Origin: Opeltia flavorubescens
Taxonomy: Eukaryota > Ascomycota > Lecanoromycetes > Teloschistales > Teloschistaceae
Assembly: GCA_000442125.1 (NCBI GenBank)
Contig: KE546976.1
Span: 1,469,755 to 1,533,754, forward strand
Direction of reading: 5' to 3'
Length of the DNA stretch: 64,000 bases
The translations under genes and the position numbers were made by a program. Each line of letters begins with the position of its first letter. Position 1 is the first letter of the stretch. The notes beneath the pieces were generated by a model. That model saw only the letters and a program-made list of their open reading frames with translations. It was not told the origin of the DNA and ran no database searches. This document shows positions 3,038 through 64,000 of this stretch, piece by piece.

Positions 3038-4270
3038 ATGCCATTCATTCCACATACACCAGAATCTCGAATCACTCGATCCGATTCCAGAGATGAAGCA
3101 ACAACATGCAAAGGCACAACCATAAATGGAAGACCATGTCGAAGAGCCTTAGATGTCCGTAGAAGCAACCATGGCGTACTTGCCGTATTACCAAATGGAA
3201 ATCCAAACGCGGACAGCGCCGCTGCATTCTTCTGTTGGCAGCACAAAGATCAAGCAGAGACTATCACGTCAACTACTCAAGCAGCACATGTCTTACCATT
3301 AAGGGGAAGAACAAGCACAGATACACTCGTTGAAAGGTTAGGATTGATCGATCTTGAAGATAGAAAACGAAAGAAGATAAAACCAATAAGAAATGAAGGT
3401 TTACCAGACAAATGGCAAGAAATACCTGGACCACTTATGACAGTATCAACATCCGGGATTCCACGACCACCAAAGCGACGTCCTCATCCACTGCTATCCT
3501 TCCTTTGCTGTGGTAGCGCAGATGAACCTGAACCTCGTCATCCAAAGCCTCGTCGGGAGATGTCGTATAATCCAAACGCATCCCTCCCTAGTCATCTTCG
3601 ACAAAACCAAATAAACCAACACAATCAACGACCACATTTACAAAGAGATCCATCCTCTCAAACCCAAGACCTACTAACCTGGATCCCAAAAACCCTCTCC
3701 CCACAAATAACATCCCTTCTTCTCGCTGAACTCGCAAAACCAATCTCCCATCACGACGAGGAAGGCTATATCTACATGTTCTGGCTAACAACGATCGCTA
3801 CATCCACCTCGGACGCTTCAAAACTACTCACCCCATCTCCAATGCCCAGTCCAGGCTCTTCTCCTCAACCAAAGTCCCACAACACTCCCAACTCAAACTC
3901 AAAGATCCTACTCAAAATCGGTCGTGCAATCAATGTTCAAAGGAGAATGAATGAATGGACTAGACAATGCGGGTATAACCTCAGTCTTATACGCTTTTAT
4001 CCGTATCTTCCGTCATCGACCCCACAATCTTTTCCGTCACGTCATGGAGTAACACAACCGGCGATGACACCGAAGAAAGTCCCACATGCGCATAAGGTGG
4101 AAAGGTTGATTCATATTGAATTGAGTGAGAAGAGAGTGAAGAGGGAATGCGAGACTTGTGGTAAGGAACATAGAGAGTGGTTTGAGGTTGAGGGGGATAG
4201 AAAAGGTGTGAAGGGTGTGGATGAGGTTGTTAGGAGGTGGGTTCGATGGGCTGAGAATACGACGAAATGA
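3038..4270 (+). CDS. T5orf172/MUG113-type GIY-YIG domain protein, 410 aa
   Basis: Single-exon gene, ATG 3038 to TGA 4268-4270. The start fits: a CT-rich leader precedes it and no earlier in-frame ATG is needed. Residues 24-72 form a Cys/His patch (TTCKGTTINGRPCRRAL, then AFFCWQHKDQ), which may bind a metal. Residues 100-215 are charged, Pro-rich linker. Residues 243-325 carry the GIY-YIG-like fold of the T5orf172 (DUF1766) family: GYIYMFWL at 243, the KIGRAINVQRRMNEW block at 293, and RFYPYLP at 319. Glu355 within HKVERLIHIEL matches the place of the conserved Glu. A CETCGKEHREWF block at 371 adds a second Cys/His group. In this family the low-complexity insertion between the two GIY-YIG strands (here about 255-288) is usual in fungi. 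Members are related to S. pombe Mug113; nuclease activity is not established, so a nucleic-acid role is inference from fold only. Confidence 0.88.
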   Translation: MPFIPHTPESRITRSDSRDEATTCKGTTINGRPCRRALDVRRSNHGVLAVLPNGNPNADSAAAFFCWQHKDQAETITSTTQAAHVLPLRGRTSTDTLVERLGLIDLEDRKRKKIKPIRNEGLPDKWQEIPGPLMTVSTSGIPRPPKRRPHPLLSFLCCGSADEPEPRHPKPRREMSYNPNASLPSHLRQNQINQHNQRPHLQRDPSSQTQDLLTWIPKTLSPQITSLLLAELAKPISHHDEEGYIYMFWLTTIATSTSDASKLLTPSPMPSPGSSPQPKSHNTPNSNSKILLKIGRAINVQRRMNEWTRQCGYNLSLIRFYPYLPSSTPQSFPSRHGVTQPAMTPKKVPHAHKVERLIHIELSEKRVKRECETCGKEHREWFEVEGDRKGVKGVDEVVRRWVRWAENTTK

Positions 4271-4538
4271 GAATCCATGAGCCATGTTTGATGTACATGT
4301 GTAGGGTATATTAAGTATGATTACGAACATATACGATAGATCAGAAATATGTATGTCAAAGATGTTTGATACATACGGAAATAAATTCCTAGATCATATA
4401 CAGTGTCTCGAATTCAAACTCGGCGAATAGCATATCTGCCAATCAGGAACGTGAAACCTTTTCATTACCCAAGACTTGTTTTCATGTTTCCTTCCTTTCA
4501 TTTCTTTTCTTTTCGTTCCATTCGATAACTTGTCTTCC

Positions 4539-4628
4539 AGGTGCGACCGCTTCGCGGAATATACTGTTCGCCTTCGGCGAAAAGATACCAGCGCCTTGCG
4601 GCGCGAGCGGACGCCTGACGGCGTCTCC
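4539..4628 (+). repeat. Cluster of four GC-rich mini-hairpins (dispersed repeat, copy 1)
   Basis: Within 90 bp, four short perfect hairpins follow one another: CCGC-ttc-GCGG, TTCGCC-ttc-GGCGAA, GCGCC-ttgc-GGCGC and GACGCC-tgac-GGCGTC. It sits just beyond the 3' end of the oxidase gene at 4713. A diverged inverted copy of most of it lies at 17851-17924, so it is a repeat and not a simple terminator. Confidence 0.75.
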
Positions 4629-13019: not shown

Positions 13020-13810
13020 CTCAATCTGGGTTCCGTGTTGGTAAGCGTATGCCTCCGGCGGCCCTCCCGGGGGGGTCTTCCCAGACGGGGTGTCTTTTCT
13101 ACTGATATACTCGGTTTCGATGCTCGGCCTAACCTAGACGTAATTGTCAGTCCTAGCCTAACCATAACGACTTTTGTTTCGCCTGCGGCGACTCCTGCCG
13201 GAGGGGCCCGCCCTAACATTCCAAGCAATTTTCAGTTAATGACCTGGCTTCGAACGCGTTCTAAAAGTGTTTCACAGCTAACTCTAACACTAACTCTAAC
13301 TCCTAACCACTTCGCCTACGGCGACTCCTGCCGGAGGGGCCTTTCCTAAACCTCAATGTGCTCAATTGCCTAACCTAGCCTAACCCAGGCGTATTTCCTA
13401 ATCCCAGCTTCGAACGCGTCTGAAAGTGTTCCACCTAACTCTAACCTAACTCTAACACCTAACCGTTTCGCCTGCGGCGACCCCTGCCGGGGAGGCCTTC
13501 CTAACCCTCTCATATACTCAATCTACCATCCTAGCCTAACCCGAGGCGTTTATCTTAATCCTGGCTTCTTAACGAGTTCTGGAAAGTGTTTCACATGCTA
13601 ACTCTAACCTAACTCTAACCCCTAACCAATCGCCTTCGGCGAGTCCTGCCGGACGGGCCTTTCCTAACCCTCGAGTAGGTTCAATTGCCTAACCTAGCCT
13701 AACCCAGGCGCAATTTGAATACCTAGCCTAATTAAAACGACTTTGTTTCGCCTTCGGCGACTCCTGCCGGAGGGGCCTACTCTAATAGTGGAGGAGAATG
13801 CGGTCTTAAT
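13020..13810 (+). repeat. Telomere-like array 1 with double hairpins
   Basis: Degenerate C-strand telomere-like repeats (CTAACTCTAACC, CCTAGCCTAACCC and similar) are interrupted by a double-hairpin motif at about 13184, 13312, 13469, 13631 and 13748. Hairpin 1 is TCGCC-TNC-GGCGA; hairpin 2 directly follows as CTCC-TGCC-GGAG, CCCC-TGCC-GGGG or GTCC-TGCC-GGAC. The left edge (13020-13095) carries a different leader: TCAATCTGG, then GCC-tcc-GGC, a GGCCC/GGGGG stem and GTCT-tccc-AGAC. Unit spacing is 114-164 bp. Same orientation as array 2 at 43.7 kb. Confidence 0.85.
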
Positions 13811-17850: not shown

Positions 17851-17924
17851 TCGTGTTTGCGCCGTTCAGCGCTGACTTCTTTCGCCGAAAGCGACAGTAT
17901 CTTACGTGAAGCGGTCGCACCTAG
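17851..17924 (-). repeat. Mini-hairpin cluster, diverged inverted copy 2
   Basis: The reverse complement aligns over about 70 bp with 4541-4615: AGGTGCGACCGCTT, then ATACTGT, then a TTTCGGCGAAA hairpin. Most differences from copy 1 are C-to-T or G-to-A, and two of its stems are weakened to G-T pairs. Confidence 0.6.
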
Positions 17925-40230: not shown

Positions 40231-40471
40231 GTCTCCGGAGATAGGATTTAGATGGACTCTTTTTTTTTTTTTTTTTCCCCCTTCCCCTTCCCTGATCTCC
40301 AGGGTCTCGTCTCAGGGTCTCCCACCGGTCTACCCGGCACTTGGAAATACTATATATTACACAGTAGGGTATAGGGAGGGTGGTGGGGGAGGAATGGCCT
40401 CCGGCCATGACGGTGGGATTAAAAAGAACGGAGATGTAGACAAAAGCATAAAGAACAGGACCCTACCTTTG
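40231..40471 (-). mobile_element. SINE-like element, subfamily 2, copy C
   Basis: On the + strand: GTCTCCGGAGATAGGATTTA, GATGGACTC, a 17-base T-tract, then a body with TACCCGGCACTTGG, GGGTATAGGG, GGGTGGTGGGGGAGGAATGG, a hairpin ATGGCC-tcc-GGCCAT and CGGTGGGA, ending GACCCTACCTTTGG. It therefore runs body, A-tract, post-A segment on the minus strand. Flanked on the right by a 150-bp satellite (40595-41790). No open frame. Confidence 0.7.
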
Positions 40472-43689: not shown

Positions 43690-44934
43690 ACGTGTTGGTG
43701 GGTGTTTGCCTCCGGCGGCCCTTCCGGGGGAGTCTTCCCAGACAGGGCCTCTTCTCTCTATGAAGCAACGATTGATCGATACCTCTTGCACTGCCAACAC
43801 TCAATCTGGATCCCTCGTTGGCAGTGTCTGCCTCCGGCGGCCCTTCCGGGGGAGTCCTGCCGGACGGGCCGTCTTTTCTTGTAGTATACTCAATCTGAAT
43901 CCTAGTCTAACTATAACTACTGTTTCGCCTACGGCGACTCCTGCCGGAGAGGCCTGCCCTAACAGTGTCGTTGAATTCAGTCTGATATTCTAGCCTAACC
44001 CAAGTGCATCTCTTTATCCTGGCTGCTGGCGTATTGAAAGTGTTCCAACTAACTCTAACCCCTAACCCCTAACCATTTCGCCTACGGCGAGTCTTGCCAG
44101 ACGGGCCTTCCTAACCTTAGGAGATGAACTCAATTGTCAGTCCCAGCCTAACCGGTAATTCATGTCTACCATCCTAGCCTAACCAGAGGTGTTTATCTTG
44201 ATCCTGGCTGGTAATTTCTGAAAGTGTTCCACCTAACTCTAACCTAACTCTAACACCTAACCAGTCGCCTACGGCGAGTCCTGCCGGACGGGCCTTCCTA
44301 ACCAGTAGAGGTGAACTCAATCTACTAACCTAGCCTAACCCAGGCGCAATTGATAATCCTAGCCTAACCCGAAGCGTCAATCTATACTCCCTGTCTCGCA
44401 CGCGTTCTGAAAGTGTTTCACAGCTAACTCTAACACTAACTCTAACTCCTAACCAATCGCCTGCGGCGAGTCCTGCCGGACGGGCCTTTCCTAACCAGTG
44501 GAGTTGAAATTCAGTCTACCATCCTAGCCTAACCCAGGTGCATTTCTAAATCCTAGCCTAACCCAGGTGCAAATCTGAATACTAGATGAACGTATTGAAA
44601 GTGTTCCAACTAACTCTAACCTAACTCTAACCACCTAACCATTTCGCCTGCGGCGACCCCTGCCGGGGAGGCCTTCCTAACCTTTGGGGCGTTGACTCAA
44701 TCTACAATCCTAGCCTATCCCGAGGTTCAAGTCTTGATATTGGCTTGTAACGAGTTCTGAAAGTGTTTCACATGCTAACTCTAACCACTAACTCTAACCC
44801 CTAACCATATCGCCTACGGCGACTCCTGCCGGAGGGGCCTTCCTAACCTTTGGGGCATTTACTCAATTGCCTAACCTAGCCTAACCCGAAGCGCAGTTGT
44901 CATCCCTAGTCGATCCCTAGTCGATCCCTAGTCG
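43690..44934 (+). repeat. Telomere-like array 2 with double hairpins
   Basis: Same organisation as array 1. Two leader modules (43710 and 43831: GCC-tcc-GGC, GGCCC/GGGGG, then GTCT-tccc-AGAC or GTCC-tgcc-GGAC) are followed by double hairpins at about 43926, 44079, 44264, 44456, 44645 and 44811, embedded in CTAACTCTAACC and CCTAGCCTAACCC repeats. Unit spacing is 153-192 bp. Each unit also has GAAAGTGTTYCA before the CTAAC run. Second stems are CTCC/GGAG, GTCT/AGAC, GTCC/GGAC (twice), CCCC/GGGG and CTCC/GGAG. The right edge ends in three 11-bp ATCCCTAGTCG units (44902-44934). Confidence 0.88.
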
Positions 44935-53174: not shown

Positions 53175-53419
53175 GTCTCCGGAGTTAGGATTTAGACGGA
53201 CTCTTTTTTTTTTTTTTTTTTTTCTCCAATTCGATCCCTCGACATCTCCATTTCATCTGGATCTCGATGCAGGGTCCGAGGGTCCACCACATCCGTTTAC
53301 CCGGCACTTGGTTTCAGCATATACAAGACAGTGGGGTATAGGGCGGGTGGTGGGGGAGGAATGGCCTTCGGCCATGACGGTGGGACAAAAAAGATCGAGA
53401 CGGGAACCTACCTTTTGGG
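53175..53419 (-). mobile_element. SINE-like element, subfamily 2, copy E
   Basis: Full-length relative of copy C: GTCTCCGGAGTTAGGATTTA, GACGGACTC, 20 T, then TCCAATTCGATCCCTCGA, GTTTACCCGGCACTTGG, a GGGTGGTGGGGGAGGAATGG body with hairpin ATGGCC-ttc-GGCCAT, GTGGGACAAAAAAGATCGAG and an AACCTACCTTTTGG end. Read on the minus strand, the GATCGAATTGG near the A-tract resembles a Pol III B-box but is at the wrong end for a classical SINE. Confidence 0.72.
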
Positions 53420-54230
53420 TGGAGATGGATTGGATGTAGCTGTAGACATGCCAGTGACCAGTGACAGTGACCATTGCCATGAATAGACTGCCAGACGTAG
53501 AGAGAGTGCATGAGATGGTAGTGTAGCTGTGGGAGTGGATGGAACGACGGCATGAGAAGACGATGAGATGAGTGGAGAGTGCTCTGGCATGGTAGTAGAT
53601 GAGACGAGTAGATAGCTAGACCATTGAATGAGTGGACAGTAGGGTAGATGACATGGTTGGAGACATGGTGGTGGGTTGGAGAGTGGATGAGATGAGGGCA
53701 TGGATGGATGAATCTACGACGAAACAGTGCTCCGACATGCCAATGGACACAGCAATGAGATGAACAGACGAATGGATGAGTAGATGAGAGGGTAGGAGAC
53801 ATTCCAATGGATAGGTGAGTGGATGGGACGATGGTATGAGATGACCGATATTCGACCAGGCAGCCTCACGAATCGACCATTACATGAGAGGAACCTACTA
53901 TGAGAGCTTCAATGAGATGAAGAGATGACTATTTGACTACATGAATGGATAATGGAACCACACCGACACCGAACAGACCTCCACCAAACATCCACACCAC
54001 CGACGAACCACCGATAGATTATGTCATGAGAAGTGGCCAGCTACACTAGAAGATGACTATATGACAGGAAGATGGTATTTACTCGGGATGGACGATTATA
54101 CGAGTGGACGACATTGAGAGCAGACATTTCTACAGTGAGACCAGTGGGTGGCCTATTCATGGATGGACAAATGGAAAAGAGCAGGGAGTGGATGGAATGA
54201 ATGGCAGAAGAGGATAGGAATGACTCACGG
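53420..54230 (+). repeat. GATGAGATGAG-type degenerate satellite
   Basis: Rich in GATGAGATGAGTGG, ACATGCCAATGG and GACATGG phrases; the individual period is blurred. In reverse complement its style matches the array at 62800-63780, which borders the oppositely oriented SINE-like copy F. Confidence 0.55.
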
Positions 54231-54289
54231 ATGGAATAATAGTTGATATTGGATATGCAGTGGGTGCAGTCGATTTGAAAACATAAAAC

Positions 54290-54960
54290 ACGAGCGAAGC
54301 GAGTTAAGCCGCAGGTATAATTACAAGTTGATGTGGGATATTACGATGATAAAAAGAGATGGGAATATATAGAATATTAAATAATGGTTAAAGACTAGAT
54401 GGATTCGATAGATATACTATGGAAGGGGTGGATGGATAGAAAAAGGGAAAAGAGATGGGAAATTATAAATAGACGCGACGAATTAATACGAATACCGATG
54501 GTAGTAGTTATAGTTCTCGCTGTAATATCAGTGGATAGTGGGAATAACTTACGGATAAAATAATAATTGATATTAGATATATAGTGAGTACAGTTAACCT
54601 AGTAATAAGAAAAATATGAGCGAAGCGAGTCAAGCCGTAGGTATAATTATACCTAGATAGATAAAAAAAAAGAGTCGATTGAATTATTTGTTCTAAAAAA
54701 AAGAAAAAAAACGAGCGAAGCGAGTAGAGCCGAAGGCAGACACCTACAGGCCTATAGATAAAGAAAAGCGTCGATTGCTCGTATTATAAGAAAAAAGAAA
54801 AAAGGGGGAAAGAACCGAGCGAAGCGAGTATAGCCGCAGGTATAAGTATATAAGAATGGATAAAGAAGAGTTACTAAATATATTTAGTTTAAAAAATAAG
54901 AAAAATATAAGCGAAGCGAGTAGAGCCGAAGGTATATCCACGGTTGGATGGATAAAGAAA
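54290..54960 (+). repeat. AT-rich array with CGAGCGAAGCGAG GC-clusters
   Basis: The GC-rich motif CGAGCGAAGCGAGT followed by AGCCGCAGGT or AGCCGAAGGY stands at 54291, 54617, 54711, 54816 and 54909 in otherwise A-rich sequence (AAAGAAAAGAGTCGATTG). Spacing in the regular part is 92-105 bp. The last GCC-gca-GGC / GCC-gaa-GGC part can form a small hairpin. Two more copies lie at 56335 and 56468. Confidence 0.7.
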
Positions 54961-55389
54961 AGAGTTGATGGGATATATCAGGCTAAAAATAGAAAAAACA
55001 AAGTCGAGGGGGGCGAGTAGGACAGGTGTCAACACAAAGAAAAAGAAAAAAAAAATCGAAATTGGAATGGAGAAGTGAAGTCGAGGAATCGATATAGGCG
55101 GGTTGCTATATTTCAAGAAAACTGCAATTGCAGGTAGACGATTAGAAGAAGAAGCATTCTATAATAAGACCGGTGGACGATGATAAGATCAACCTACTCT
55201 TTGAAAAGAAATCTGCCTAAATCGACTCTAGACGCACTTATTCCCGACTATAGGATAGATCGCGTTGGGAAAGTAATTAAAACTTTGCACATTTCTAAAT
55301 ATCGACCTGACAAATGACCTACCACAGATAGAGAATGGTACACGTAGAGAACACTCCATCGATAGACACCTTCGACGATATATTAGAGA

Positions 55390-56230
55390 GAAAACCTATT
55401 CCAGTCGATGATCGAACGATGGGAGATATGGTTGTAGAGACTGCGGTGAAAGAGGGAATAGTCGTAGCAAAGATCGGTCGGATGCATGAAAGATTCGATT
55501 GATGGGAGGGATAAATGGAAAAGAGTCGGAAGTGGATGGAATGGAGGGATAGGAGTGTATGGGAGAGGATACACCGATACGGATGAAGAAAAAGGAGTAA
55601 AATGGACAAATATTTGGATCGGTTGATGGATAGGAGGGATAAACGGAAGGGGTTCGGGTACTGGACAGAATGAACAGCTGAAGGGTGGATAAAGGAGGCC
55701 ACACCGATATGGATGCATGGGATGAGAAAATGAAAACAATACTTGGATCGATGGATGTGGGTAGGAAAGACGCTGGATGAAGGACTGAGATATTGGCTGA
55801 TTGGGTTACAGGAGTGGAATCGACAGTGGGGTGTTACGACGATGAAGGGGAGGGTATACATGGGATATGGACTATATCCAATCGATAAAAGGAATAAGCG
55901 GAAAGGGGCGGGAAGTGGACGGGATGGAATGCTACCTGGCAGATAAGAGTGACTAGACAGATGAGGATAACCAATATGGAATAGCAAATGGATTGACCGA
56001 GTGGCAGAAAAGACGTCGATCTACAGCCCGGATTCAATAACAGGGAGTGGAAGTTGACATATAATGAAAAGTGGAGGGAATAAAAGGAATCTGGGATAAT
56101 GACTGAATATTCAATAAATTCGATGGATGAATTGAGGAGTGGGCGGATGGATGGGAGGGTAAAGGGGGAAATTACAAATGAAGATGGCAGAATACTCCAG
56201 AGATCGATGAAAGTAATTTTAACGGGCATG
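55390..56230 (+). repeat. GGATGG/GGGATAAA degenerate satellite, period about 120-130 bp
   Basis: CACCGATACGGATG and ATATTTGGATCGGTTGATGG recur at 55570-55640 and again as CACCGATATGGATG and ATACTTGGATCGATGGATG at 55690-55755. GGGATAAAYGGAARRGG also recurs. The long minus-strand Pro/Ser/Phe frames here are repeat artefacts. Confidence 0.55.
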
Positions 56231-56333
56231 CTGTGGGGTTAATGGATAGGTAGAATGACTTACGGAGGGAAATAATAACTGATTAGACAATACTATCGTT
56301 ATTGGAAAACTCGGTAGGTTGAGTTGAGAAAAC

Positions 56334-56510
56334 ACGAGCGAAGCGAGTCCAGCCGCAGGCATAATCGCAAGTCAAGGGATGAAGAAAAGAGTTGGGGGTG
56401 TAGTAGGCTAAGAAAGCAAAAGAAAAGAAAATAAAAATAAAAAAGACAAAAAGAGAAGAAAAAAAACACGAGCGGAGCGAGTAGAGCCAACGGCATGATT
56501 ATAAATAAAT
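56334..56510 (+). repeat. Two further CGAGCGAAGCGAG GC-clusters
   Basis: CGAGCGAAGCGAGTCCAGCC at 56335 and CGAGCGGAGCGAGTAGAGCC at 56468, separated by an A/G-rich stretch, just left of the MITE. Confidence 0.65.
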
Positions 56511-56545
56511 AAAAATGGAAAACAGTATTAGAAGGAACAAGTGTA

Positions 56546-57203
56546 TAGTCGCCCAGGTATGCCAGATTGCCATAACTATTGACTTTTTCACTTTTGACTT
56601 TTGACTTCAGAATTCAGGCCAAATTCACGTACGATACACGGCTCTACCTAGCTACAGCGCCACTAATACTGGTTAGATTCCTATAAAAAGTATATGCACG
56701 GAAAGCGCTCGTTACGCGCTTTCAAACGAGCTGCTTTATACTAGAACCCGATAAGGTAGCGATGTCTTATTCAACTGCGAAGTTTTATTAAAGGCTTAGA
56801 GGGGGCTTCTACTCGTAGGAGGGCTAAGCCCTAGCTGTATCTAATCGGGTTTAAAGCGCTTTGTCCCTACTATAAAAAGCTTAAACGCCAAGCTTCTAGC
56901 TCTTTACTAAGCCCGCTAAGCCCGAAGCGTCTACTAAGCCACTTCACACTATAGGCTATACAGCTTAATATCACACCGAATCCTTGTTACATCTTAATAT
57001 AAAGTATCTTATTTGGAAGCGCATCACGAGCGCTTTCCGTGCATGTAATTTTTATAGGAATCTGACCAGTATTCGTGGTGCTGTGGCTAGGTAGAGCCGT
57101 GTGGCGTACGTGAATTTTGGCCTGAATNCTGGTTTTTCAAAGGTTGTTTTGTNAAAATGAAAAAGTGAAAAAGTTATGGCAATCTGGCACACCTGGGCGA
57201 CCA
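56546..57203. mobile_element. Foldback MITE, 658 bp, TA target duplication
   Basis: The left end starts TAGTCGCCCAGGTATGCC and the right end, reverse-complemented, starts TGGTCGCCCAGGTGTGCC; the first 32 bases differ at two positions. Inverted similarity continues for about 185 bp (AATTCACGTACG, CACGGCTCTACCTAGC, ATTCCTATAAAAA, GCACGGAAAGCGCTCG). The dinucleotide TA flanks both ends (56544-56545 and 57204-57205), consistent with a Tc1/mariner-type non-autonomous element. The centre has no transposase frame but includes nested inverted segments (AACCCGAT at 56747 and ATCGGGTTT at 56843). Ambiguous bases at 57128 and 57153 lie in the right arm. Confidence 0.85.
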
Positions 57204-57359
57204 TACAAGTGAAGTCGAGGTGTCGATATCGACAGGTGGTTATAATAAAGTTTTCTTAGTGCGGCTGAAAAAAAAAAGATTTAAGCGGCCGACTTCGGGA
57301 TCCCACCCATGCACTGAACCAAATTAGTCATCGACTGATCCATTACAGAATTTGACAAT

Positions 57360-58900
57360 TCGATACGTTAAGCACCTAATCTACTCCAGCGACGCAGGCA
57401 GGTCTGATGCTGACAATAATATAAAGAATAATATCCTGATCAAATCCGAGCATAAGTGGGACCAAATCTCGATCCCTCCAAGCTACCTTCCGTGTACACG
57501 CATCGATACCAGCACCTTCTTACGAACCCGTTCCCGGATCAGTGAAGCTCTCAACGCCGGCTCCCATATACCATCCAGCATATACCGAATAATGTGAGTT
57601 GGTTTAGAAGACAATACACAGAAAAAAGGATGATATAAGAATGAATAGTTGAGATCGAATAAGAATGCCCGCGGCAATAAGAGTCCTATACAGGTGAACA
57701 TGTACAAAGTGGAGGCCAGGTAAGTGCAGCTCAACGGAACCAATATAATGACGCTGATATCGACTATAGTACGGACACCCTTTCACGAGCCTGTTTCCAG
57801 ATCGGTGAAGCTCTAAACGCCGGCTTCCTCACCCCTCTCACCCATTCCCAGAGACCAGTGGTGGGATCTACGGAATAACGCACGCCGATAGAAAAAAATG
57901 GACTGTGATTACACGGGAGGGTGGAATGGTCAGAGACGGCAACAAGAGTCCAACACACGTGAAAGTGGGGAGAGAGGGGGCAGGGTAAATGCGGTCTCGA
58001 TGGAATCAACGACACTAACATCGACAATAGTACCTACGAACGAATCCGTCGTCGGATCGGTGAAGCTCTAAATGCCGACTCCCACACTGATATTTATAAT
58101 GCACGCCGACCAAAGAAGATGGATTTTGATTGCAAGAGGGTGGAGTGGTAGATACAGTACCGAGTGAAGATGTCGACACAATGATAGAGTGGCGGGAACA
58201 GGAGTCCCACACATGTGAAGATGGAGAGGATGGAGGCAGGTTGAGTGCGGTCTTGATAGAATCAACGATACTAATATTGACAACAGTACCAGCACCTTTC
58301 GAATCCATTATCGGATCGATGAAGCTCTAAAAGCTGGCTCCGTCACCGACATCCACAATGCACGCCGACGGAATAAAATGGATTGAGATGGGATGAGCTT
58401 GATTGCACGAGGGTGGAATGGCCGACACGACATCGAGCGAGGATGTCGACACAATGAAGAGATGGCAATAAGAGTCCCACACATGTGAAATGCGGAGAGA
58501 GCGGAGGTGGGGCAACGAGACTCCTACCCACATAAACATGTACAAAGTGGAGGCAAAAGTGAGTCCGGTCTGGATGGAATCAACGACACTAACATCGGCG
58601 GCAAAACCGACACTATCCTACGAACCTGTTTCCGGATTAGAGAGATCCAAGTGCCGACTATCTTACCCACTCCACCGGCAACCAAATGAAGAGTGGGAAT
58701 TAAAGCGGAATGCGCCTCACTGTAAGGAGAGAGACAACAGCCATATATACGTGAACGTGGAACCAGAGATCCAACATACATACCCATCCATCTGCCTGCC
58801 TTTTCAATGGAAGGAAGTGCTGGCGGGAACAACAAGGTGTGCAATCAACGCAAGCAGAGAAATAGATCAGGATACTGACATCTGAGACGGCAACGATGAT
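57360..58900 (+). repeat. Degenerate satellite, period about 260 bp, five units
   Basis: Anchor GGATCGGTGAAGCTCTAAAC with GCCGRCTC at about 57536, 57800, 58054 and 58313, with a worn copy near 58633. Other shared blocks: AATCAACGACACTAACATCG, CACACATGTGAAR and GCACGCCGA. Spacings 264, 254 and 259, then about 320 where part of a unit is doubled. Confidence 0.75.
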
Positions 58901-59029
58901 AAATGCCAACAACGGCATCAACACGGACATCTCGGTATGCACACGAAACAGGATACAGTGATCGAACTCTTCGTGCGTGTCGTCTTCTCAGAGTGTCCGT
59001 TGAAGGATATGGAGTAATATTCTTGTCGT

Positions 59030-59560
59030 ATAGAGAACATCTTTTTATCCGGGAGCCGGACTTTTTTTCTTTTGTTCACGGTGTCATTGAAACTACCGAA
59101 CCCGAAGAAAGGATTCAGATCTCTGGGATCTAGATTCTAGGATCACTGGGGAGAAGGGAAAGGGAAAGATGGCGAGGATGGGCAGAGGGAAGTGTGGGTT
59201 GATCGAATCTTTTTCTTTTTTTATCTTTACTGATTTTATTATCATCAGAGGGTTGTGATTATGCCTCCGGCGGGTCCTGCCGGACTGGCCCTCCTCGCTC
59301 CGCTCGATTTTATCGTCTTTTTTTACTACCTTTTCTCAAAGATACCATTGGACTATGGAAGGGTTCAGATCTCTGAAATCTGGACTCAAAGATCTTCCTG
59401 GGTGAGTAGGGGAAGGGGAAGGAGAAGGTAGTGAGGGTAGTTGCGCGAAAGAGGGAATGAGAGTGGGTCCTCGGACTTGTTTTTTTTTTTATTTTTTTTT
59501 TTATTTTTTTTACAGTATCTTTGATACCACCGGTCCCTTGAGAAGGGCAGGATAGCGAGG
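59030..59560 (+). repeat. Direct duplication, offset about 250 bp, with T-runs
   Basis: GGRTTCAGATCTCTGRRATC followed by a GGGAARGGGAARG purine run occurs at 59112 and 59363. A partial third copy of the leading part (GATACCACCGGTCCCTTGAG) is at about 59525. Each is preceded by a T-rich tract. Confidence 0.6.
59262..59312 (+). repeat. Solitary hairpin module with GC-cluster (copy o)
   Basis: GCC-tcc-GGC, then GTCC-tgcc-GGAC, then CTCCTCGCTCCGCTCGATTT, which is the inverted form of the CGAGCGAAGCGAG cluster of 54.3-56.5 kb. It links the telomere-array hairpins and the GC-clusters into one family. Confidence 0.7.
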
Positions 59561-59859
59561 GTAGTAGGAGGACGAGCTGGGAGGAGAAGAACAGGAGGTT
59601 GGAAATGACCATCCTCAGCAATTGGGAGGCAAGTTGGGAGGATATGGGGATGGTGAAGGGCAATGTCTGCTGGTAAAAAGGGAGTCGAAGTGATTAAATA
59701 TACAGAAGAGTCAATTTCTATCATACCGATCTTTTTTTATTTACTCCTTTTAATAACCGTACTGCAAACCAAGCCCAGCCTTATTTCAATATAATTAAAT
59801 CCTTTCCAAGCTATCAATCGCTGACTATATATATGCAGACGATGAAATCAAAGACCTTT

Positions 59860-61100
59860 GAGTGATAACGACAGATGCAATTCTATACACTGAGAGTGTC
59901 CATTATATCAAAATATTGAAAACTGAAATTATTCAAATTCAATCCACTGCAGTTATAATCGAATATCCGGTCTCCTTTCGCACCTATACACCCGGTTGCA
60001 ATGTTAAAAGACGGGAAACTCGAACTGTTAAAAAGAAAGAAAAAGGAGAATTCGAGAGTCCAGATTATCAAATTAATAATAAGGTGGGAACATTCAGATT
60101 CAATCCACTATAGTTACAATTCGATATCCGGCCTCTTCTCGTGTGCACACATCCAGTCCCGATACCAGAAGACCGGGAAATTAAAAAAAAAAATCAAAAA
60201 AAAAATCGAGGAAATTGAACTGTTCATGTCGCCAGATTAATGGAAAATGGGAATATTCGAATTTGAATTTACTGTATTTACAGGCAAATACTCGGTCTCT
60301 TCTCGTGTATATACACCTGGTCTGGACGTGAAAAGAAGGGAAATTGAAAAAAAAAAAAAAAAAAAAAGGTTTCCATTGTCAAAATAGTAAAAAGTCGAGA
60401 TATTTATATTCATTCCACCACAACCACAACCTGATATTTAACTCCCCTTATATTCACACGCCAGGTCCCCAGCGTCAAAAATGCGAAGTAAGAAAAGAAA
60501 AAAAAGAGAGAAACCAAGTATCCAAAATATCAATTTGGCAAGAAATAGAAATATTCGAATTCTATCCACTGCGACTATAATAGGATATCTATGGTGTCCA
60601 GTATATGTATCCCCATCAGCAAAATCAAGAAACGGGAATATCCAATTCCCCCCCCCCCCAAAAAAAAAAGTTAAGTATCTAATTCCACTTTTCGATATTA
60701 TCAAATAGCTGACTGATCATATAGTCAGTTACACCCTCTGATATAGATCAGCCTAGTCTCGACCCCTTTTATTGAAGGAATACATGTCTCAAATTTCAAA
60801 AAAAGAAAAAAAAGAAGAAATCCACCCACTCCAACTCCCCAATATCGTCGAATAGCTAATTGATATTACGGGGATCAAGATTCTCTATCGCGAGTTACCC
60901 AGCCTTGAGGTCATTTGCCCATAGAACAGAATATCCAAATTCTTAAAAAAGAAAAAAAGAAAAAAAAGTAAAAACCTCCACTTTCCAATTCCATCGAAAT
61001 GCTAACAGTATATAGAGGGATACCCCTCGACAATAATCAATTCAAATGCTAATATTATTCTTTTCTTTATTGATCAGATTACAACAATATCAATATCTCA
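59860..61100 (+). repeat. AT-rich degenerate satellite, period about 145-165 bp
   Basis: Anchor AATCCACTG/AATCCACTA or a variant at 59941, 60102, 60266, 60411 and 60562, each followed by a GATATCCGGYCTC-like block and a poly-A/A-rich run. Spacings 161, 164, 145 and 151. Later units (to about 61100) are more worn. Includes a 24-base A run near 60343 and an 11-base C run near 60649. Confidence 0.65.
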
Positions 61101-61206
61101 ACCTGTACTGACTTGCAATTGCCGATTCTTCTATTATCAACTATTTTAATTTTCCCTTTTTTTTCTTTTTCATTCATTCAATCTGGATTCCTTATTGCTT
61201 GTGATT

Positions 61207-61268
61207 GCCTCCGGCGGCCCTTCCGGGGGAGTCCTGCCGGACGGGCCCTCCTCGCTTCGCTCGATTTT
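61207..61268 (+). repeat. Hairpin module with GC-cluster (copy p)
   Basis: GCC-tcc-GGC, a GGCCC-tt-CCGGGGG stem, GTCC-tgcc-GGAC, then CTCCTCGCTTCGCTCGATTT. The preceding TCAATCTGGAT phrase also precedes the leader modules at 13020, 43680 and 43800. Confidence 0.75.
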
Positions 61269-61749
61269 TTTTTTTTTTTTTCAATTTTCAATTTTCAATT
61301 TTCCCCGTGTCAGTCAGTACCCCTTTTTCTTCTCTCTTCCCGTCAATCTAAAGAAAATATTGATTAATTACAATAATCTACTCCATCAGTATCGATATCG
61401 TCGGTCTCATATATTAATAATATCGAAATCTCTCTTTTTTATCACATGCAGTCAAATTCCACTTACAACCCCACTCCCATAATCAATTCCAGGCACCAGA
61501 AATCCAATTCTCAATTTTCCCATTTTAAATTCCGTTTTTTCGATTATTTCAATTATCGACCTTTCCACCTATCAACGTATATTCCCATTATCCCACAGCA
61601 AATTCAATATAACTTGACTTATCGTATATACAATTCTATTAACTGCCAATACTAACAAGATTCACAACATTATCCAGCTGTATAGTATATTGATTCATCT
61701 CCTTTCCAAAATTCCCATCCTATACCCACTCCATTCATCCTATTACACC

Positions 61750-62795
61750 GTCAATTCATTATCATCTATAAGTAATTTCCATTTCATCAACTTTCAAATA
61801 TTCAAAATGCAATTTTCAAAATATTCCCCAGTAGACTTCACGTGTATATTCCATACATCCAGACGTCCAATGGGTCACTACCGTAATATCCCAACATCAA
61901 ATATCGACATTTTCCATTTATCCATCAAAATCATGACCCATTGCATCCCCAACCCATTTGTTCTATTTTGCCCTCTCCGTCCGTTTAGGCCATCTATAAG
62001 TCAACTTGCATCACCAAAGTCAGGAATACATCAACATCCCTAAACAATATCCACTTCTTCAATTGTCCAATTTTAAAAATCGATTTCCCAAATATTCTCG
62101 TATAGAGTTTACCATCCCATTCCATACACCCAAACAGTCAACAGGTCACTGCCCAGGATTCAAATATCGAATATTCCCAATTTCCATTTCTTCAGATTTA
62201 TAATTCGATCCATATCAGATTGTCGAATATCCCCCAGTAGAGTCTATCAGCCCATTCAATACACATACGGGAATGGTTGGTCACCGTCAGAGCATTCAAA
62301 TATCGAAAACTAATAATTTATATTTATTTGTCAGAATCACCACCCAATCCATCTCCATCCCATTGCTTCTATTATCTAGCATATCAAATAGATCATTCCT
62401 CATCTACTCTCGACTTCTCCATCCCAAACAATGCAATATATCAATTTCCCAGATTCCTTCATATATTTCAGCAACTGTCCAATATCCAAAATCAACTTCC
62501 CAAATATATCCAGCAGAGTCTACCAGCTCATTCCATACACTCAAACAGTCAATGGGTCACTGTCATATCATCAAAATATCGAAACATCGAATATTAACAA
62601 TTTCCATTTTTTATCAAAATCATCACCAATTCCATCTTCAATCTATTCCTACTGTTCTCTAGTATATCAAATCGATCATTCCCCATTGATTCTCACCTTC
62701 TCTATCTCAAATACTGCAATATCTCAATATTCCAAATTTCCATTCTATCCATCCACCCATCGACCTTCCATTACCACATCATCTCAAACAGCGTA
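61750..62795 (+). repeat. AT-rich degenerate satellite, period about 137 bp
   Basis: TTCCATACAYYCAAACAGTC-like blocks followed by GGTCACTGYC and AAATATCGAA at about 61849, 62122, 62254 and 62534; intervals 273, 132 and 280, that is, multiples of about 137. Pyrimidine-rich on the + strand, unlike 54-56 kb, which is purine-rich. Confidence 0.6.
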
Positions 62796-62799
62796 AGCA

Positions 62800-63780
62800 T
62801 TGAATAATCACTCTCATTCCTCTCATATCACTCCAATATAGGCCAAATATCCATTTTCCTAATATAGACGTCCTCCACCACCACAACCAGATTCCATACT
62901 ATCAACCCATCTACTCCTCCATCTCATCGAATATCATCTCATACATCGTCAAATAGTACTGTAGGTCACTCTAGAGTATCCCAAATATCCATTCCAACCC
63001 GTAAGATATCATTCCATCACTCCACCACCATGACCAGATCTCATACTATCCTTCCATCTACTCATCCATTTCATCCATATTCCATCTCTACAGCATCTCA
63101 ATCATCATTCTATAGCCCAGTCGTCACTCCAATGTCACTCCAATATATCCCAAATATCCATCCCATCACTCCATCACCATATCCAAATCTCCCACTGTAG
63201 ACCCTTCCATCCATCTCATCATCCAGTAGACCATTCCAATCATCCTATAGTCCATCGATCACTCTGATTCCATCTCATTTCACTGTCAAGTCTGTCAAAT
63301 GTCCATTTCCATCCACCAGACACCTTCCCATTACTCCNCCAGCCTATCCAGAACCCTCTCTATCATCCCATCCACTCATCTCATTATCTACTAGACTACC
63401 CATATCATCTTTCATACCATTCAAATGTACCCCAGACATCTATCCATCCACTCCAGACACCATCCAATCACTCCACCACCACTCCACCACCACAATCAAA
63501 TCTTCTCCAATCATCCCATCCACTCCTCCCATCACCCAGTAGTCTTCTCAGATCATCTCTTATCCATCCCAGCACTCTAGCAATGTTCATCTACAGTAGT
63601 CACAGTCTCTCCATCACTCCCACTGACCTCACCATCGGTCTCATCCACCCTCATTTCTCATCCACCACCCACTTTCTCATTCATTGACAGTCTTCTCATA
63701 GCTACAATCACTTCATGCACTCATTCATCACGTTCATTCTATCCATCTACAGCGACTACTACTCTCCACCACTACAGCCT
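62800..63780 (+). repeat. CCATC-rich degenerate satellite, period about 140-170 bp
   Basis: CCCAAATATCCATYCCA with CATCACTCCACCACCAT recurs at 62976, 63148, 63298 and 63436 (variants). One ambiguous base (63338). In reverse complement it resembles the array at 53420-54230, and it leads into the SINE-like copy F. Confidence 0.6.
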
Positions 63781-64000
63781 CCAAAGGTAGGGTCCTGTCT
63801 CGATCTTTTTTGTCCCACCGTCATGGCCGAAGGCCATTCCTCCCCCACCGCCCACCCTATAATCTACTATGTAATATATGTTCAGATGAAGTGCCGGGTA
63901 AACGGATGTGACGGACCCTGAGACGAAACAGGAAAGGTCCAGACCCTGCATCGAGATCCCCATTGGGATGGAGGAATCGATCCCTCGAGATGGAAAAAAA
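63781..64000 (+). mobile_element. SINE-like element, subfamily 2, copy F (cut by right edge)
   Basis: Opposite orientation to the other copies: CCAAAGGTAGGGTCCTGTCT, GATCTTTTTTGTCCCACCG, hairpin ATGGCC-gaa-GGCCAT, TCCTCCCCCACC, AGTGCCGGGTAAACGGATGT, GGACCCTG, GAATCGATCCCTCGAGATGG and the start of the A-tract at the window end. TGGCCGAAGG and GGAATCGATCCC resemble Pol III A- and B-boxes about 120 bp apart, in the right order; this is suggestive only. Confidence 0.72.

Follow-up and report, generated by a model that had tools for sequence, protein, structure and literature searches.

Compensated double hairpins with a shared DNA-type loop rule in telomere-like satellite arrays of one Opeltia flavorubescens contig

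Telomere-like satellite repeats of the ascomycete Opeltia flavorubescens carry pairs of adjacent hairpins whose second stem differs between copies, which raises the question whether its letters change only together and, if so, what keeps the arms complementary. The 64,000 nucleotides analysed (hereafter the window) correspond to C12:1469755-1533754 in a genome of 34.4 Mb in 23 contigs. Contig C12 (KE546976.1) is 1,598,914 bases long and has CCCTAA repeats in a long run at its start and a short TTAGGG run at its end. From about 9.6 kb of the window up to C12:1.5537 Mb, the limit of the sequence fetched, it is a gene desert with no stop-free frame above 250 aa, and leftward of this desert such frames are common. 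All results refer to this one genome, in which the starts of contigs C2 and C7 and the stretch following the window read N. Two arrays rich in CCTAACC and CTAACTCTAACC motifs lie within the desert, and a third follows to the right, with the hairpins of an array spaced by 118-192 bp and in one case by 259:

13130..13790, plus strand: array 1, telomere-like satellite (CCTAACC, CTAACTCTAACC) holding five double hairpins, repeated in tandem over 13247-13710 with a period of about 156
43880..44900, plus strand: array 2, satellite of the same kind holding six double hairpins, repeated in tandem over 44035-44721 with a period of about 187
C12:1541928-1542363, minus strand: array 3, three units, outside the window and past a 5722-base run of N

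Other features of the region are noted for completeness. A 410-aa open frame with a T5orf172/MUG113 domain is found at window positions 3038-4270, and a MITE-like element with inverted repeat arms of about 210 bp that are 82% alike at 56542-57207; a 44-bp relative of the latter lies close to the left end of C12. Positions 53600-64000 as well as the neighbouring loci L009 and L010 are gene-poor, with numerous weak duplications and a marked purine/pyrimidine asymmetry between the strands, the GC skew being +0.40 at 54-56 kb and -0.57 at 62-64 kb.

Each unit follows one layout, TCGCC-TNC-GGCGA, four bases, TGCC, the four complementary bases and then GGGCC or AGGCC. Ten of the 14 array units stand directly behind a CCTAACC motif. 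The five units of array 1 described in the sequence-only reading were all recovered between 13179 and 13777, and their second stems are CTCC/GGAG in three, CCCC/GGGG in one and GTCC/GGAC in one, with loop TGCC throughout; array 2 holds CTCC twice, GTCC twice, CCCC once and GTCT/AGAC once:

13179..13208, plus strand: array 1 unit a, stem 1 TCGCC/GGCGA with loop TGC, stem 2 CTCC/GGAG with loop TGCC, tail GGGCC
13312..13341, plus strand: array 1 unit b, loop TAC, stem 2 CTCC/GGAG
13468..13497, plus strand: array 1 unit c, loop TGC, stem 2 CCCC/GGGG, tail AGGCC
13630..13659, plus strand: array 1 unit d, loop TTC, stem 2 GTCC/GGAC, 5' junction 1 nt shorter
13748..13777, plus strand: array 1 unit e, loop TTC, stem 2 CTCC/GGAG
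43925..43954, plus strand: array 2 unit a, loop TAC, stem 2 CTCC/GGAG
44078..44107, plus strand: array 2 unit b, loop TAC, stem 2 GTCT/AGAC
44265..44294, plus strand: array 2 unit c, loop TAC, stem 2 GTCC/GGAC
44457..44486, plus strand: array 2 unit d, loop TGC, stem 2 GTCC/GGAC
44644..44673, plus strand: array 2 unit e, loop TGC, stem 2 CCCC/GGGG
44810..44839, plus strand: array 2 unit f, loop TAC, stem 2 CTCC/GGAG

The sequence TCGCCTNCGGCGA has 12 exact matches in the window, those of array 1 at 13179, 13312, 13468, 13630 and 13748, while the twelfth (4568) belongs to a different hairpin family, B, and not to the arrays. As 100 dinucleotide shuffles gave at most 0 matches, a chance origin of this recurrence was rejected. 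Six related modules have a first stem that is merely GCC-TCC-GGC, five of them in the window and the sixth at C12:1469354:

13050..13090, plus strand: long module, GCC-TCC-GGC, CCC-TCCC-GGG, GTCT-TCCC-AGAC
43707..43749, plus strand: long module, GTCT-TCCC-AGAC, GGGCC tail
43829..43870, plus strand: long module, GTCC-TGCC-GGAC, GGGCC tail
59262..59306, plus strand: short module, GCC-TCC-GGC, GTCC-TGCC-GGAC and TGGCC, then CTCGCTCCGCTCG
61206..61263, plus strand: long module, GTCC-TGCC-GGAC, then CTCGCTTCGCTCG

The 14 array units, which form 9 distinct rows, have standard base pairs in 81/81 pair cells. Stem 1 is identical in every unit, whereas three of the four pairs of stem 2 show two-sided changes, with no one-sided change and 0/56 pairs mispaired. 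The covariation score of this alignment was reached by 0/500 column shuffles; sliding the alignment lowered pairing from 100% to 32-54% with far lower scores, and permuting the 3' letters left all pairs intact in 0/200,000 trials. When the six modules were added (20 copies, 5 distinct rows), 20/20 second stems were perfectly paired, none with a G-T wobble, and 3/500 shuffles reached the score. That stem 2 changes only in compensated pairs, as proposed from the letters of the window, is thereby confirmed, also with the copies beyond the window included. Since stem 2 varies only in this manner, the folded form is, or was, kept or copied, and because its letters vary yet never mispair, it is the pairing that is conserved and not a word. 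What is preserved may be the folded DNA itself.

Numerous copies with mispaired second stems would speak against this, and none were found genome-wide within three mismatches of one search pattern, a range beyond which more diverged copies would escape; the two GTCT modules with loop TCCC were recovered only by a second pattern. At two mismatches or fewer the search returned 18 copies, every one paired and every one on C12, and off C12 there were 10 three-mismatch matches compared with 18 for a reversed control pattern. In prokaryote and viral collections one pattern gave 0 exact matches. All double hairpins found lie on C12 between 1.469 and 1.542 Mb, a 73-kb stretch at least 56 kb from the right end of the contig, so that calling them telomere-associated, as the sequence-only reading did, was too wide. 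A general telomere repeat was rejected on the same grounds, the double hairpin being found on C12 only and not beside the telomeres of many chromosomes. This survey covered the first 400-2000 bases of C1-C21 (C2 and C7 read N) plus four contig ends, and hairpins of the same loop type were seen beside the telomere at the left end of C20 and, weaker and judged by eye, of C12. At C20:1-130 (L047) the left telomere is directly followed by CTCGCTCCGCTCG and a hairpin with a 9-bp stem, GGCGCGCGC-TGC-GCGCGCGCC, amid CCTAACC motifs.

The loops offer a second line of evidence. Both are of the form T..C on the unit strand in 14/14 array units and 6/6 modules, and hence G..A on the opposite strand; the middle base of loop 1 is G in 5, A in 6 and T in 3 of the array units, between a fixed T and C, and in the modules loop 1 is TCC in 6/6 and the stem-2 loop TGCC or TCCC in 6/6. 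Read on the G-rich (GGTTAGG) strand, loop 1 is GNA and loop 2 GGCA, both with C-G as the closing pair except in the GTCT variant, whose GGCA is closed by T-A. Extraordinary stability has been described for DNA mini-hairpins whose loop is GNA or GNNA and whose stem has two or more G-C pairs (PMC4686876), and the present hairpins have both the loops and the G-C pairs. The likeness to d(GCGAAGC)-type hairpins comprises the G and A loop ends, the free middle and the two or more G-C pairs; as far as the same text goes, such hairpins are known from chemistry and aptamers (PMC4686876), whereas here they occur in genomic satellite.

Among TCGCC-N3-GGCGA sites a TNC/GNA loop is present in 24/24 within C12:1.36-1.55 Mb vs 5/29 elsewhere in the genome, the background count listing 50 of 53 sites and 29/29 rule sites, with the Fisher test made on the listed sites. 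The rule is obeyed by 32/39 GCC-N3-GGC cores in the desert and 11/22 in the gene-rich part, and by 13/20 GCC-N4-GGC cores in the gene-rich part (where family B is dominant) and 0/4 in the desert, compared with a chance expectation of 12.5%, which has to be read with the shared ancestry of the copies in mind as they are not independent. In the 194-kb region, perfectly paired hairpins with stems of 5 bp or more and no fewer than 4 G/C per arm follow it in 36/54 triloops and 15/25 tetraloops, and without the G+C filter in 53/199 and 27/161. The double hairpins and most other recurrent hairpins nearby thus share the loop rule of DNA mini-hairpins, which is new here. An exception is a GCTGC-TCGA-GCAGC hairpin, present as two copies in a longer repeat. 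The additional families are as follows:

4534..4625, plus strand: family B copy with four hairpins, CCGC-ttc-GCGG, TTCGCC-ttc-GGCGAA, GCGCC-ttgc-GGCGC and GACGCC-tgac-GGCGTC, with the same loop rule
17859..17915, minus strand: decayed family B copy, two mismatches in hairpin 1, a T-G wobble beside the loop in hairpins 2 and 3
C12:1362184-1474379; C11:294699 and 294790; C14:1032040: family B copies
40394..40408, plus strand: family C hairpin ATGGCC-TCC-GGCCAT
53361..53375, plus strand: family C hairpin ATGGCC-TTC-GGCCAT
63823..63837, minus strand: family C hairpin, on the opposite strand
L010:4063-9093, right of the N run: family D, seven hairpins in a GAGCG...AGCGAG-like context
54292..56500, minus strand: family F (mixed), a purine-rich stretch with six GAGCG(A/G)AGCGAG motifs

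Family B is an element of about 70-90 bp with three or four hairpins (CCGC-ttc-GCGG, TCGCC-ttc-GGCGA, GCGCC-tnnc-GGCGC), present in 14 copies (15 matches, two being parts of one copy), 11 on C12, 2 on C11 and 1 on C14. Intact hairpins number 42/46, and 41/42 of these have T..C loops, the remaining one TTA; three of the four imperfect hairpins belong to the decayed copy and the fourth is a C14 hairpin with a G-T wobble. Hairpins 3 and 4 of the family carry G-C, A-T or T-A at one outer pair, with 4/500 shuffles reaching the score in an alignment of 16 hairpins, 7 of them distinct, that includes one of the decayed copy and omits two third hairpins with triloops. In family D, GGGCC/GGCCC, AGGCC/GGCCT and GCGCC/GGCGC surround a constant GAA loop and two outer pairs change jointly; with 7 copies in 3 distinct rows, 55/500 shuffles reach the score, which is not significant alone. 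Five of the family F motifs are followed by GCCGNAGG (GCC-GNA-GGC in two, a GGT ending in three) and one by GCC-AAC-GGC, so that 1/6 sites breaks the rule, the motif that lists this family already containing it. Families A (the array units), C and D and the modules follow the rule throughout. As A and B have TCGCCTNCGGCGA in common, they may not be independent and may share a source.

Compensated pairs are the classic sign of an RNA helix, and a structured RNA or transcript processing signal kept by selection at the RNA level would explain the second stems directly. To this can be added that 7/11 C12 copies of family B, at 4 places, lie about 250 bases or less past the 3' end of a stop-free frame of at least 400 aa (by eye), and that three family B hairpins contain a single G-T wobble, which suits an RNA as well and counts against our preferred reading. 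The family B copies at frame ends, however, occur in both orientations relative to the frame, none of the 20 second stems of arrays and modules contains a wobble, and the minus-strand sequence of loop 2, GGCA in 18/20 copies, is not a GNRA loop. An Rfam family was rejected, with 0 matches at the gathering score in the window and in L009, L010, L012 and L013, so that altogether we regard a selected RNA as a rather improbable cause. Still less probable, indeed hardly credible to us, is a palindromic site in the satellite that binds a protein such as a telomere-repeat factor, requires dyad symmetry and never folds: the invariance of stem 1 and the CCTAACC directly ahead of ten units would suit such a site, but stem 2 stays symmetric through changes of its letters, C-G to G-C included, and the TNC/TNNC loop rule would be unexpected for a site bound as duplex.

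More weight has to be given to the history of the variants. Three double changes suffice to connect the four stem-2 states (CTCC, GTCC, CCCC, GTCT); a fourth change may be added by the occurrence of GTCT with loop TGCC in the array and with loop TCCC in two modules. A 5' junction shorter by one base (CCAA or CCAG ahead of TCGCC) is found in 4/4 GTCC array units and in 0/6 of the other type-II units; since GTCC always comes with its own shorter junction, it looks like one cassette that was moved around. Trees of the flanks imply 5-6 state changes vs a minimum of 3, most branches being too weakly supported for a count of independent double changes, and in the right-flank tree the two CCCC units are joined with good support. 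Left-flank and right-flank trees disagree, again with weak support, which points to exchange between units, and the array copies would be largely shuffled cassettes.

These observations suit an explanation in which a few ancestral variants were spread by unequal exchange or conversion within a satellite, the pairing being inherited and the fold no longer acted on. Against it stand the rates: in the ten type-II units left flanks differ pairwise at 10.0% of cells, right flanks at 33.9% and stem-2 arms at 27.8%, vs 0% in stem 1 (0/450 cells) and in loop 2, with the middle base of loop 1 differing at 64%. Over all 14 units the corresponding values are 22.5% for the stem-2 arms, 28.0% for the left and 42.0% for the right flank, and still no stem-2 pair mispairs. 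Compensated pairs are furthermore seen in other families too, and the origin of the compensated variants is left unexplained by inheritance. We therefore hold spread of inherited variants to be unlikely as the whole explanation, while of the alternatives considered it is the one to be taken most seriously. The proposal that the folded form is selected or copied stands as far as pairing was kept through change; the telomere link and the cruciform or transcript form put forward with it are not supported as worded, and the few events required weaken it, the objection that the classes could trace to few ancestral variants being borne out in part by the few states and their cassette-like shuffling.

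Double hairpins that insert as a unit are a further candidate, proposed for mitochondria as double-hairpin elements (DHEs). Paquin et al. 2000 is said to be a study on Allomyces. DHEs are described as potentially mobile, in mitochondrial genomes of chytrids such as Allomyces and of the three fission yeasts Schizosaccharomyces octosporus, S. osmophilus and S. cryophilus, as given in the section of the report used here (PMC10085805). According to the same section, they too consist of two adjacent GC-rich stem-loops per short unit in several copies, mostly intergenic, and unlike them the present units are located not in mitochondrial DNA but in telomere-like satellite arrays near the end of a chromosome-size contig, the 1.6 Mb C12 with its CCCTAA start and TTAGGG end. 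The double hairpins resemble DHEs in form, as judged from the description of the latter.

Insertion as a mobile unit would be in line with the varied contexts, since similar hairpins are found in arrays, in modules lacking telomere-like flanks and, as family B, on three contigs (C11, C12 and C14). On the other side, no pair of empty and filled sites was established in this one genome, and tandem duplication accounts for the array copies. Y1 HUH transposases are linked to IS200/IS605 and REP elements. A Y1-type transposon of either kind was rejected, as the genome gave 0 matches to PF01797 in a profile search that matched 5/14 genomes as control. A Helitron-like N-terminal domain was detected in a 1669-aa open frame at C8:1042205-1042744 (L069), with three further matches containing stops on C9, C16 and C19. 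The mark of Helitrons is a CTRR-type right end, and although a Helitron gene is present, family B shows no such conserved end by eye. A mobile double hairpin is thus very unlikely in our judgement.

As to the form in which the hairpins fold, cruciform DNA or a transcript had been suggested; the loops match the GNA/GNNA type of DNA better than the GNRA type of RNA and the stems are only 4-5 bp long. We infer from the DNA-type loops, and from stems that seem too weak to extrude from the duplex, that single-stranded DNA is the likelier folded form. Predicted DNA folding energies of the array variants range from -6.4 to -8.6 kcal/mol with generic parameters. The energy model gives GNA no bonus over the other listed triloops and favours GGCA over TGCC by 0.4 kcal/mol only, and folding energies tried for telling the strands apart gave no separation.

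The explanation we prefer, with slightly less than an even chance of being correct, is that the hairpins are modules of a nuclear satellite that would fold as single-stranded DNA and would be kept perfect by fold-back copying together with array turnover. The G-rich strand would fold while single during replication or resection, and the 3' end of a nascent strand would copy one arm off the other within the same hairpin in an intrastrand template switch. A mutation of one arm would in this way be copied to the other and yield a double change in one step, and exchange between units would spread the resulting cassettes. Mutation patterns consistent with template switching that produces compensatory changes have been reported, in which instantaneous compensatory changes are enriched for GNRA and CTTG loops; the pages concerned add that inversion of an exceptionally stable loop is unlikely while intrastrand switching could be promoted, and the authors themselves call the evidence for maintenance of short stems circumstantial (PMC8794818). 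Quasipalindrome or template-switch mutation, as outlined in the portions of the literature cited, likewise predicts compensated changes, perfect stems and DNA-stable loops, and is a mutation process and not an element (PMC8794818, PMC8604942); for the present arrays it would be a putative process. In the array units, with and without the modules, and at the outer pair of family B the changes leave the arms complementary, and no inverted loop occurs among the array and module hairpins. Paired stems, the lack of wobbles in stem 2, the lack of inverted loops and the DNA-stable loops thus fit template switching.

Besides the wobbles of family B, several points count against fold-back copying as we propose it. 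Plain fold-back correction leaves the invariant stem 1 unexplained, the arrays strictly require no more than three double changes, and folding is predicted to be weak, with the double hairpin as the best predicted fold in 5/8 array-variant strands only and other folds preferred by both strands of the two modules tested.

The orientation of the hairpins provides a lead. Among rule cores in C12:1359755-1553754, 41/41 to the left of 1.5235 Mb have T..C on the plus strand and 20/24 to the right have it on the minus strand, counts that have to be read with a cut chosen after viewing the data, copies sharing ancestry and single elements that can yield several cores. They omit the decayed family B copy at C12:1487613 (minus), whose cores no longer match and which is, as a single case, the sole C12 copy of its family in the opposite orientation. 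Such a polarity would agree with a process that depends on the strand, for instance through the direction of replication. A wider reading would regard the hairpins as a nuclear class of selfish or structural elements, double or triple single-stranded DNA hairpins obeying the loop rule that keep their stems perfect through fold-back copying of one strand, as set by the direction of replication, and that colonised a telomere-like satellite and sites close to gene ends of one chromosome arm; this we consider unlikely.

Comparable palindromes are described from organelles. The repetitive hairpin-forming elements of sponge mitochondrial DNA (PMC2800124) and HyLIMP of Lobosphaera (PMC4524435) have related stems that differ by complementary substitutions, as do the stems studied here; in the parts of these sources drawn on they are mostly single, longer and organellar with no GNA/GNNA rule given, unlike the present hairpins, and the sponge elements show conserved stems with variable loops, the reverse of stem 2. 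Interstitial telomeric sequences, going by the excerpt used, are similarly internal blocks of telomere-type motifs (PMC6410037), but here the satellite is degenerate with one hairpin pair per unit at the distances given above. Literature searches in open PubMed Central for hairpin repeats of nuclear or telomeric DNA gave no comparable paper by title among the matches listed, and searches with the hairpin letters no title on fungal repeats among the matches listed, many of which by title concern halophilic archaea, presumably through 16S primer text. Short hairpins of the GCCTCCGGCGGC type may be widespread in fungal genomes, in which case the novelty would be lower.

Compensated pairs are usually taken as a sign of a selected RNA, and here they are found in a satellite with loops following a DNA rule, making these arrays a natural setting for testing whether fold-back copying of DNA alone writes compensated pairs. 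If the preferred explanation is true, the double hairpins of O. flavorubescens would be a main-genome counterpart of the hairpin elements reported from organelles in the sources cited.
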